NCBI GenBank assembly: GCA_030950085.1 | Contig: JAUZRW010000071.1 | Coordinates: 1 to 41,140, forward strand | DNA: 41,140 bases | Source of the DNA: Anaerolineae bacterium | GTDB taxonomy: Bacteria > Chloroflexota > Anaerolineae > Aggregatilineales > Phototrophicaceae | Reading direction: 5' to 3' | Shown here: positions 26,144 to 28,334 of the stretch, in pieces | How positions within the stretch are numbered: position 1 is the stretch's first letter | How the letters are laid out: each line of letters begins with the position of its first letter | The notes under the pieces: generated by a model | Seen by the model: only the letters and a program-made list of their open reading frames with translations | Told to the model about the DNA's origin: nothing | Database searches by the model: none | Made by a program: the position numbers and the translations under genes

Positions 26144-26743
26144 ATGATAGATTTTTCACCCGTTAGTAATAAAGAGAAAAAATACATCGACCTTTGGCAC
26201 GATAATAATCTCACCGTCGATGATTTGCGTGCTGTGACAAACGAGAGCATTGATTTTCTATTGGAATTAATTTCCGATTTAGAGGATGCCGATATCGTGT
26301 TTGAGCCAAAAGATGATGGTGCAGATGACCCCTACGCAGTCGAAGGGGAAGAGCATATTGGCTGGACACTTGGACATTTGATTGCTCATGTCACAGCATC
26401 CAGTGAAGAAGGGGCTGCGTTTAGCTCACTGTTGGCACGCGGCGTTGAAGAGGTAGCGCATCGTCCACGTTATGAGACCCCTTGGAAAGACATAGATAGC
26501 AAGGCAAAGACCGTACAACGTCTCGAAGAAAGTCGTCGGATGCGTTTAGCCTATCTCGATACATGGCCCGATGAACCACATTATGATAATTTGCGCGTAT
26601 CGCCATCTGAACGTTTTCAGGAATATTTTGGTGATTTGAACGCGCCGGCTAGTTTTCTGGCAGGTCTTGGACACGAAGTCGGCCATTATGACCAAATTAA
26701 AGAAGCAAAACGGCAAGCCCTCGCTGCAAAAGCACAGGCATAA
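26144..26743 (+). CDS. DinB-like metal-binding protein
   Basis: This 199-aa helical protein has the DinB/YfiT four-helix-bundle pattern. The first metal His lies in GWTLGHLIAHVTASSEEG; the other His residues lie in GHEVGHYDQIKEAK near the C-terminus. Such proteins bind a divalent metal and include thiol transferases and stress proteins, but the reaction of this one is unknown. The last helix is Ala/Lys-rich. It lies upstream of hisS, with a 256-base gap holding the attenuator. Confidence 0.8.
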   Translation: MIDFSPVSNKEKKYIDLWHDNNLTVDDLRAVTNESIDFLLELISDLEDADIVFEPKDDGADDPYAVEGEEHIGWTLGHLIAHVTASSEEGAAFSSLLARGVEEVAHRPRYETPWKDIDSKAKTVQRLEESRRMRLAYLDTWPDEPHYDNLRVSPSERFQEYFGDLNAPASFLAGLGHEVGHYDQIKEAKRQALAAKAQA

Positions 26744-26805
26744 TCGCAATTTGGGGCGAGATAATTCCTTCGCCCCTAACCATTATTTCTTGCCTCGCCA
26801 CCCTA

Positions 26806-26834
26806 TTGAAATCTGACCCATTCTGAACGATACT
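26806..26834 (+). promoter_or_regulatory. Promoter of the his leader / hisS transcript
   Basis: TTGAAA (26806-26811) and GATACT (26829-26834) are separated by exactly 17 bp. Initiation would fall near 26841, only about three bases before the leader-peptide ATG, making the leader nearly leaderless. A symmetrical GGGGCGA/TCGCCCC hairpin upstream (26753-26776) could end the DinB transcript. Confidence 0.55.
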
Positions 26835-26843
26835 TGATAGATT

Positions 26844-26894
26844 ATGAAAAATAAGCAAAGCGCATTATGGCGCTCACACCATCATCACAATTGA
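26844..26894 (+). CDS. Histidine leader peptide (16 aa, four consecutive His)
   Basis: The short frame encodes MKNKQSALWRSHHHHN and ends in TGA. The four His codons (CAC CAT CAT CAC, 26877-26888) are followed by one Asn and the stop. An in-frame TAG at 26838-26840 leaves ATG 26844 as the only normal start. No Shine-Dalgarno site is visible, but the predicted transcript start is almost at the ATG. A hairpin AGCGC/GCGCT (26859-26863 with 26870-26874) lies inside it and may pause the polymerase. The peptide itself is not expected to have a function; its translation senses charged tRNA-His. This is inferred from the arrangement with the downstream attenuator and hisS. Confidence 0.85.
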   Translation: MKNKQSALWRSHHHHN

Positions 26895-26904
26895 TAACGC
26901 AAAT

Positions 26905-26939
26905 CAACGTCCCGATAGAAACCGCATGGCGCGACGTTG
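26905..26939 (+). promoter_or_regulatory. Antiterminator of the hisS attenuator
   Basis: CAACGTC (26905-26911) and GACGTTG (26933-26939) form a perfect 7-bp stem. The second half overlaps the 5' arm of the terminator (26926-26934) and its loop, so the two structures exclude each other. A ribosome stalled on the His codons leaves 26905-26911 free. A ribosome reaching the stop codon at 26892-26894 would cover its first bases. Confidence 0.8.
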
Positions 26940-26956
26940 TTTCGCGCTATTTTTTT
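26926..26956 (+). terminator. Attenuator terminator upstream of hisS
   Basis: ATGGCGCGA (26926-26934) pairs with TCGCGCTAT (26942-26950) through nine pairs, one G-U, with loop CGTTGTT, and runs into seven T (26950-26956). It ends 43 bases before the hisS start, with no coding frame of its own to explain it. Confidence 0.88.
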
Positions 26957-26999
26957 GCCTATTAACCAATCCATTCTTTAATCATGAGGAGCTAACACC

Positions 27000-28334
27000 A
27001 TGACCAAAATTGAAGCCCGTACTGCCAAAGGAATGCGCGACTTTCTTCCGGCGGATATGCTTAAGCGCGAGTATGTCATCGGCATTGTTGAAGAGGTGTT
27101 TCAACTCTACGGTTACGAACCTCTGCAAACCCCCATTCTGGAAACATCAGAAACGCTACTCGGTAAATATGGTGAAGAGGCTGAGAATCTGATTTATAGT
27201 GCCAAACACGGACGACAACGTGATAGCAAAGTCGCAATGCGCTATGATTTGACAGTGCCATTGGCGCGAGTCGTGGCACAATACGAAAATCAACTGACGC
27301 TGCCCTTCAAACGTTATCAGATTGCCCCTGTTTTTCGCGGCGAGAATCCGCAACGTGGGCGCTTCCGTGAATTTTATCAGTGCGATGCCGATATCGTCGG
27401 CGTGGCGAATATGTCCGCCGATGCCGAACTCGTTAGCCTTGTAGTCACTGTCGTGCGTCGTTTGGGTTTCGATAAATTCACGGTGAAAATCAATAATCGC
27501 AAGTTACTAACAGGCATGGGGCAATATTCGGGTGTGCCAGATGACCAACTTGCTGATTTGTATCGCAGTGTGGATAAATTCGACAAGATGGGTGCAAAAG
27601 GTGTCGCTGCCGAACTCAAAGAACGGGGTATTGCTGATGATGTCATTGAGCGCATGTTAACGCTGCTGCAAACCAAAGGTGAAGGGATTGAAAGCCTTGA
27701 TAGTGTCGAAGAGGTGATGGGCAATTTCCCCATTGCAGTAGAGGCTATCAATGAATTACGCGAGATGGCAGAAAACCTGAAAATGCTCAATGTGCCATCC
27801 GAAAATTATCAATTCGATTTTACAGTGGTACGAGGTTTAGGCTACTATACGGGTCCCATTTTCGAGACAGTCTTAGATGATGGCAGTATCGGCAGCATTA
27901 GTGGCGGTGGGCGCTATGATGATTTGATTGGTATTTTCCGCAAAAACAGTTTGCCCACAACCGGAGTCTCACTCGGCATTGAACGCATCATTACGATTAT
28001 GGATGAAAAAAATATGTATCCAGCAAATATCGGTGGTACAGTGGTTGATGTGCTAGTAACGGTATTCAACAAAGAGATGCAAGGCGCATCATCCGCACTC
28101 GCACAAGGTCTTCGTAATGCCGGAATCCGTGCGGAACTATACATGACGGATAGCCGCCTCAAATTAGGGAAACAATTCAATTATGCGGATAAAAAAGGTA
28201 TCCCGATTGTGGCAGTTATGGGACCCGATGAAGCCGAAAAAAGCATCGTGCGCTTAAAGCAACTCAGTACAGGAGAAGAAATCACCCTAGCACAAAGCGA
28301 CGCTGCGGCAAAAATCCGCGAAATGCTAAATTAG
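27000..28334 (+). CDS. hisS: Histidyl-tRNA synthetase
   Basis: The 444-aa class II synthetase charges tRNA-His. Motif 2 reads FRGENPQRGRFREFYQCD, and the histidine-specific loops VRGLGYYTGPIFE and the GGGRYDDL/GVSLGIERI motif 3 region are intact. The C-terminal anticodon-binding domain (about 340-444) is present. GAGGAG lies eight bases before the ATG. It stands alone between the attenuator and a terminator, so the leader peptide 150 bases upstream should set its expression according to the level of charged tRNA-His. Confidence 0.96.
   Translation: MTKIEARTAKGMRDFLPADMLKREYVIGIVEEVFQLYGYEPLQTPILETSETLLGKYGEEAENLIYSAKHGRQRDSKVAMRYDLTVPLARVVAQYENQLTLPFKRYQIAPVFRGENPQRGRFREFYQCDADIVGVANMSADAELVSLVVTVVRRLGFDKFTVKINNRKLLTGMGQYSGVPDDQLADLYRSVDKFDKMGAKGVAAELKERGIADDVIERMLTLLQTKGEGIESLDSVEEVMGNFPIAVEAINELREMAENLKMLNVPSENYQFDFTVVRGLGYYTGPIFETVLDDGSIGSISGGGRYDDLIGIFRKNSLPTTGVSLGIERIITIMDEKNMYPANIGGTVVDVLVTVFNKEMQGASSALAQGLRNAGIRAELYMTDSRLKLGKQFNYADKKGIPIVAVMGPDEAEKSIVRLKQLSTGEEITLAQSDAAAKIREMLN

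Follow-up and report, generated by a model that had tools for sequence, protein, structure and literature searches.

A putative histidine leader-peptide attenuator upstream of hisS in an order of Chloroflexota

Is the gene for histidine--tRNA ligase (hisS) in members of the class Anaerolineae placed under a transcription attenuator that reads the supply of histidine? This question is raised by a stretch of 41,140 nucleotides, referred to here as the window, that comprises positions 1 to 41,140 of contig JAUZRW010000071.1 in the assembly of an Anaerolineae bacterium of the order Aggregatilineales (GenBank GCA_030950085.1). An earlier note, made from the sequence of the window, described a short reading frame with four adjacent His codons between a promoter and hisS, followed by an intrinsic terminator and a competing antiterminator. 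All of these parts, with the promoter as a promoter-like site, were found where the note had placed them (Table 1). The product of the downstream gene scores 389.4 bits against the NCBIfam model TIGR00442 (cut-off, 286.75), as expected of a histidine--tRNA ligase equivalog, and among the best 80 of 594 matches in named records, the nearest hisS sequences (66% to 57%) are labeled Anaerolineae, a class of Chloroflexota. The gene that would be controlled belongs to the metabolism of histidine, the very amino acid encoded by the codon run of the leader. The heptanucleotide CAACGTC behind the leader frame is the exact complement of GACGTTG, which sits in the left arm and loop of the terminator, so that the two helices are mutually exclusive.

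Table 1. Parts of the hisS leader region and neighboring genes in the window
Feature	Position	Strand	Basis or remarks
-35/-10-like site (sigma-70-type promoter-like)	26806-26834	+	TTGAAA 26806-26811, 17 nt, GATACT 26829-26834
Leader peptide frame, 16 codons plus stop, MKNKQSALWRSHHHHN	26844-26894	+	ATG 26844, TGA 26892-26894; His-rich short frames at the same place in relatives
Small hairpin AGCGC/GCGCT within leader frame	26859-26874	+	Folding; possible pause hairpin
His codons CAC CAT CAT CAC (proposed stall sites)	26877-26888	+	Sequence
Antiterminator 5' arm, CAACGTC	26905-26911	+	Folding; covariation of homologous arm
Intrinsic terminator	26926-26956	+	Stem 26926-26950 (9 pairs, loop 7), six T 26951-26956; covariation
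Antiterminator 3' arm, GACGTTG, within terminator 5' arm and loop	26933-26939	+	Folding; covariation
GAGGAG, likely hisS Shine-Dalgarno	26986-26991	+	Sequence reading
hisS, histidine--tRNA ligase, 444 aa	27000-28334	+	NCBIfam TIGR00442
DinB superfamily protein, upstream neighbor, outside the switch	26144-26743	+	PF12867

The favored reading, to which a probability of about 0.9 is assigned, is that hisS is controlled here by a ribosome-mediated transcription attenuator that responds to histidine. Transcription would start just ahead of the short frame, which would be translated by a ribosome following the polymerase. With ample charged His-tRNA, the ribosome would reach the stop codon and mask the beginning of the antiterminator, upon which the terminator would form and RNA polymerase would halt before hisS. 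With charged His-tRNA in short supply, the ribosome would stall at the first His codons, the 5' arm of the antiterminator (along with pairs further out) would bind its 3' arm, the terminator could not form, and hisS would be transcribed, restoring the charging of the tRNA; hisS mRNA levels would in this way respond to histidine.

Taken alone, the signals in the window are modest and near chance, and it is the comparison with relatives that decides. Between positions 26300 and 27300, there are three promoter-like sites (1.3 ± 1.1 in shuffled sequence) and two terminator-like sites (1.2 ± 1.1), the folding energy of the leader is ordinary (z-score, -0.81), and the pattern (CAY)4 occurs 107 times in the 5.1-Mb genome of the window, as against 23 occurrences of the reversed-pattern control. 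Such numbers leave room for a reading in which the hairpin simply ends the transcripts of the DinB-family gene that lies upstream and the His frame has arisen by chance: terminator-like sites are present in nearly the chance number, four consecutive His codons are not rare in this genome, and the stem begins approximately 180 nt past the DinB-family stop codon, in the orientation of that gene. The comparisons described below make that reading very unlikely, as His-run frames far exceed their expected number, promoter-like sites of one type (chosen without a control) precede many of the leaders, and there is covariation between antiterminator arm and terminator loop, which a plain terminator would not need. 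Transcripts of the DinB-family gene could also end at the same terminator.

The search for hisS covered 61 genomes, 58 of which had a match; 55 of these, all from the same order, provided the 56 loci at which the upstream region was read. Genomes G004, G017, and G024, with fragments or distant paralogues, were left out, two of the loci (L022 and L136) are contigs of a single genome, and some of the hisS-like matches with less than 40% identity may represent different proteins of the hisS family. A His-rich short frame (two or more His within seven residues) followed by a terminator lies directly 5' of hisS at 26 of the 56 loci, i.e., in 25 of the 55 genomes, which come from families f1 (16 genomes), f2 (2), f3 (1), f4 (4), and f6 (2). 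The element is also present on a public contig (L036), bringing the number of loci in the later tests to 27. The directly adjacent frame and terminator are absent from 30 of the 55 genomes of the order, in some of which hisS, by reading, lies close behind the upstream gene (e.g., at L028, L113, and L127). The element loci do not include L006 and L131 (terminator without a His frame), L017 (dropped, with one His), L032 (too short), or L021 (hairpin without a T run); the terminator of L135 was added by hand.

Frames with three His in six residues, started by ATG and ending 60 to 140 nt before hisS, were found at 20 of 55 loci, compared to a mean of 0.26 and a maximum of 2 in 100 shuffles of the same upstream stretches; a chance origin of the His frame was rejected on this count. 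No residue other than His exceeded its shuffled maximum at these 55 loci, the 6 loci with Ser being equal to the maximum for that residue. The His codons of the 27 frames comprise 56 CAT and 32 CAC; such mixing at the third base is what codons, as opposed to a fixed DNA site, would be expected to show. Judging from the sequences compared, the combination of leader, terminator, and antiterminator at hisS is conserved across relatives far beyond chance. The earlier note had proposed aligning hisS upstream regions of related genomes and looking for conserved His runs and for compensatory changes in both stems; roughly half of the relatives read have a His run, a terminator, and an antiterminator at the corresponding position, and the covariation tests reported below reveal compensatory changes in both stems.

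Several variants of this arrangement were encountered. In G038, a member of family f3, the same arrangement (locus L209), with the frame MRQRHHHSHHSANG, is found one gene upstream of hisS, the intervening gene looking, by reading, like one for a low-molecular-weight phosphatase or ArsC, and in another f3 genome, G056, a covariance model match lies approximately 1.4 kb before hisS. Locus L003 (genome G005), with the hisS most similar to that of the window (69%), has a His-rich frame, MIIFNIHPHQHHPHSH, from 177 to 126 nt before hisS, and the terminator search upstream of this hisS found no terminator; it is perhaps a decayed or a translational variant.

The start of the leader is best considered in the light of these loci. 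In the window, the GATACT box ends 9 nt before the leader ATG and, because of this short distance, the leader frame may be leaderless, with a putative transcription start about three bases ahead of the ATG; no clear Shine-Dalgarno sequence for the leader frame was seen by reading. At 19 of the 27 loci, the box that fits best in the 70 nt preceding the frame is an exact TATACT. TTGCAA stands 17 nt before the chosen box at 11 of the 27, and the chosen ATG is 24 to 39 nt away from it at 21, these boxes having been picked as best matches without a shuffle control. Promoter-like sites of the form TTGCAA-17-TATACT recur before the hisS leaders of this family.

Covariation of the two helices was assessed in an alignment (A1) of 24 of the 27 loci, with L129, L132, and L134 left out for their divergent spacing or hairpins. 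Pairing extends to 92.3% of the cells of the terminator helix, versus 88.0 ± 0.9% in shuffled alignments (0 of 500 shuffles reach this value), and five of its pairs changed on both sides, a number reached by 5 of 500 shuffles. For the antiterminator helix, the fraction of paired cells is 77.8% (69.7 ± 1.6% shuffled), the number of cells changed on both sides is 27 (11.2 ± 3.3), and the covariation score is 0.374 (0.242 ± 0.025), with 0 of 500 shuffles reaching the observed value in each case; these columns were chosen from a single row, L018, and the shuffles do not keep the relatedness of the sequences. Sliding the antiterminator partner by one to three columns leaves at most 45.2% of cells paired. 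The numbers of antiterminator pairs changed on both sides (reached by 186 of 500 shuffles) and of pair types (459 of 500) are not above those in shuffled alignments. An alignment-free test, in which the spacer of each of the 27 loci was paired with its own terminator loop, gave a mean score of 15.4, compared to 13.6 ± 0.56 with swapped loops; 20 of 20,000 permutations reach the observed score, a figure that is not a clean probability because some of the loci are close relatives. The exact complementarity in the window and the covariation in relatives thus bear out the earlier claim of an antiterminator that excludes the terminator.

The placement of the antiterminator relative to the leader frame varies. 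Its first columns coincide with letters of the stop codon in 14 of the 24 aligned rows, such as uGACCAACG with CGUUGGUC at L018 and uaGCUGAC with GUCAGC at L015, and a best-helix search had the arm start inside the stop codon at 7 of 27 loci; the arm of the window begins 10 nt past the leader stop.

Folding of the window leader with the ribosome modeled as a mask, leaving out a stall at the third His codon, predicts a structural switch. With the ribosome at His codon 1, the probability of the terminator is 0.006 and that of the antiterminator is 0.989; at His codon 2, the respective values are 0.031 and 0.963, at His codon 4, 0.954 and 0.014, and at the stop codon, 0.967 and 0. On its own, the antiterminator region (-9.4 kcal/mol) is less stable than the terminator (-12.5 kcal/mol), and it prevails only with the help of outer pairs near 26898-26903, which are partly covered by a ribosome at codon 4 and wholly covered by one at the stop. 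As codon 4 already favors the terminator, stalling in this model must occur at the early His codons. By folding, a stall is thus predicted to free the antiterminator arm at His codons 1 and 2 but not at codon 4, and completion of the frame is predicted to mask it. Among all 27 loci, a predicted switch above 0.5 is seen at 15, compared to 2.2 expected with shuffled spacers; footprints of 10, 12, 14, and 16 nt yield switches at 11, 13, 15, and 17 loci, respectively, with approximately 2 expected in each case, and 3 of ten further loci show the predicted switch (0.18 expected). The 12 loci with no predicted switch, 11 with a terminator probability above 0.6 under both conditions and one (L011) below 0.2 under both, indicate that the thermodynamic model does not account for all of the loci. 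With no ribosome, the window leader is predicted to favor the antiterminator (probability of 0.993), as are the untranslated leaders of 12 of the 27 loci, the window included (terminator probability below 0.5). In contrast, the untranslated trp and his leaders of enterobacteria terminate.

Two further readings accept the leader frame and assign it a different role. According to one of these, the His-rich nascent peptide would sense a metal or another ligand and itself stall the ribosome, with tRNA charging playing no part. His runs do bind metals in general, but the gene behind the leader is hisS in five families, its product being the one demanded by histidine shortage, and apart from His runs that range from HH to HHHHH no common motif was seen in the peptides, which makes metal sensing extremely unlikely. 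According to the other, the leader would act on the translation of hisS, or by reinitiation, and not by transcription termination. The L003 variant, with its His-rich frame and no terminator found, would fit such a scheme, and the hairpin ends as close as 22 to 50 nt before hisS at 21 of the 27 loci. On the other hand, a run of at least four T residues follows the hairpin at 26 of 27 loci (all except the hand-added L135), although the terminator search rule itself demanded such a run, and the hairpins of the window do not include the hisS Shine-Dalgarno region, so that translational control is most improbable as well. Transcription attenuation by a translated His leader is the reading retained here.

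To what extent this element has spread was examined with a covariance model built from the 24 loci of alignment A1. Run on 154 genomes of the order (E ≤ 0.01), the model matched 50; for 20 of these no locus was fetched, and the partial, weak matches there, confined to model positions 57 to 87, may be plain terminators. At 29 of the 30 fetched loci, tblastn detected hisS behind the match, and the thirtieth (L171) is cut by the contig end and reads into the start of hisS. Eleven of the 30 fetched loci come from genomes outside the training set, although their independence is limited because nine belong to genus g13, which has three training genomes. A script found a His-rich short frame before the terminator at 9 of 10 examined nontraining loci, with TTG as the start codon in one case; the remaining locus, L157, was misparsed and enters the count as a miss. 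Reading revealed a His frame and a terminator in at least four genomes that the model failed to match: G025, from the training set, and G041, G055, and G060. In the genome of the window, hisS is the one high-scoring match (E = 4.9e-11), and the second of the 14 matches has an E value of 0.14; five of these matches (L141 to L145) were read as possible further copies and looked like plain terminators or chance.

A class-wide run of the model matched 12 of 298 genomes, and none of the five matches outside the order (L204 to L208) was, by reading, at hisS. The reading of hisS upstream regions outside the order covered 48 genomes (151 were searched and 49, including that of the window, matched at E ≤ 1e-30), and 2 of the 48, L175 (G266) and L198 (G255), combined a frame in which three of seven residues are His with a terminator-like hairpin, a count that covers frames of this kind and leaves out His pairs. 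Both are from genomes of other classes in the phylum. As the class-wide matches are not at hisS and only these two cases were found by reading, the element is, on the sequences searched, mainly a feature of this order, many members of which are without it. A second use within the window genome, at hisD, was considered and rejected: a terminator-like hairpin precedes hisD and no His-rich frame was found. At this locus (L229), a GC-rich hairpin with a T tract begins at position 1330, and the likely start of hisD is at 1387.

Attenuation of this kind has well-described counterparts. The his operon leader of Proteobacteria (RF00514) has the same tandem His codons, terminator, and antiterminator; however, it controls biosynthesis and not a synthetase, and the window leader is set apart from it by the antiterminator predicted in its untranslated state. 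The RF00514 model had no match at the gathering threshold in the window, nor one up to E = 10 in the region from 26700 to 27100. In Firmicutes, attenuators with leader peptides that contain three to five consecutive His codons and with terminator and antiterminator hairpins precede histidine biosynthesis operons (PMC9413887), whereas here the gene is hisS of an order of Chloroflexota; in that paper, hisS is absent from the text and Chloroflexi appear only in the reference list. Closer still are the bacilli, in which His leader peptides with attenuators have been predicted before hisS* and hisZ (Naville and Gautheret 2010, PMC2965389): these leaders likewise combine a short frame that contains a His stretch, a predicted attenuator, and a hisS-family gene, but sit on duplicated hisS and on hisZ, with the first hisS of bacilli with a duplication carrying a T-box; the main text of that paper does not name Chloroflexi.

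T-boxes (RF00230) are the other principle by which synthetase genes are controlled by amino-acid supply, and they differ in that they sense uncharged tRNA directly, while the hisS leader appears to be of the leader-peptide type. No T-box match was found in the window and no Rfam family matches the hisS leader region; a T-box or another Rfam element at hisS was rejected on these absent covariance model matches. At the same time, T-box matches were found in all 61 genomes searched, in 60 of them over the cut-off. Two of the three matches in the window genome were read: to judge from the translations, L138 (C230:39017-39277) lies before trpE, and L139 (C189:71492-71735) before an operon of a methyltransferase-like gene and valS. 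With T-boxes at these genes and the putative His leader at hisS, two principles of amino-acid sensing would operate side by side.

The earlier note had suggested that a His attenuator at hisS in this group may be new. No published report of a His leader in Chloroflexota (Chloroflexi) was found in a literature search that covered few subscription papers, nor was a Chloroflexota case found when leader peptides were sought together with hisS or its enzyme; a 2010 survey of bacterial attenuation by Lopatovskaya and others, cited in PMC4833913, may contain a prior prediction. For the phylum, T-boxes are named in a survey of cis-regulatory RNAs that included five Chloroflexi genomes and that, in the passages available, lists the His leader as an Rfam family with no tie to Chloroflexi (PMC3766115); another paper (PMC4833913) mentions Chloroflexi as a group with a noisy diagram for lack of genomes. 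The suggestion may hold for the phylum and has to be narrowed, as a 2010 study had already predicted His leaders ahead of hisS paralogues in bacilli (PMC2965389). On the sequence evidence, the present case appears to extend a known mechanism, the new element being leader-peptide attenuation at hisS in an order of Chloroflexota.

The A1 alignment and the model derived from it allow annotation of hisS leaders in these lineages. The attenuator would work only if the ribosome closely trails RNA polymerase, which makes transcription-translation coupling in this phylum testable. A broader proposal, for which the odds are judged to be even, is that these leaders represent a minimal, order-wide form of leader-peptide attenuation, in which the stop codon would lie within the antiterminator arm in many members, some would need no hairpin to protect that arm, and the leader can be almost leaderless. 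Should this minimal form prove true, it would imply tight coupling of transcription and translation in the phylum, along with the presence of T-boxes beside leader peptides in one and the same cell.
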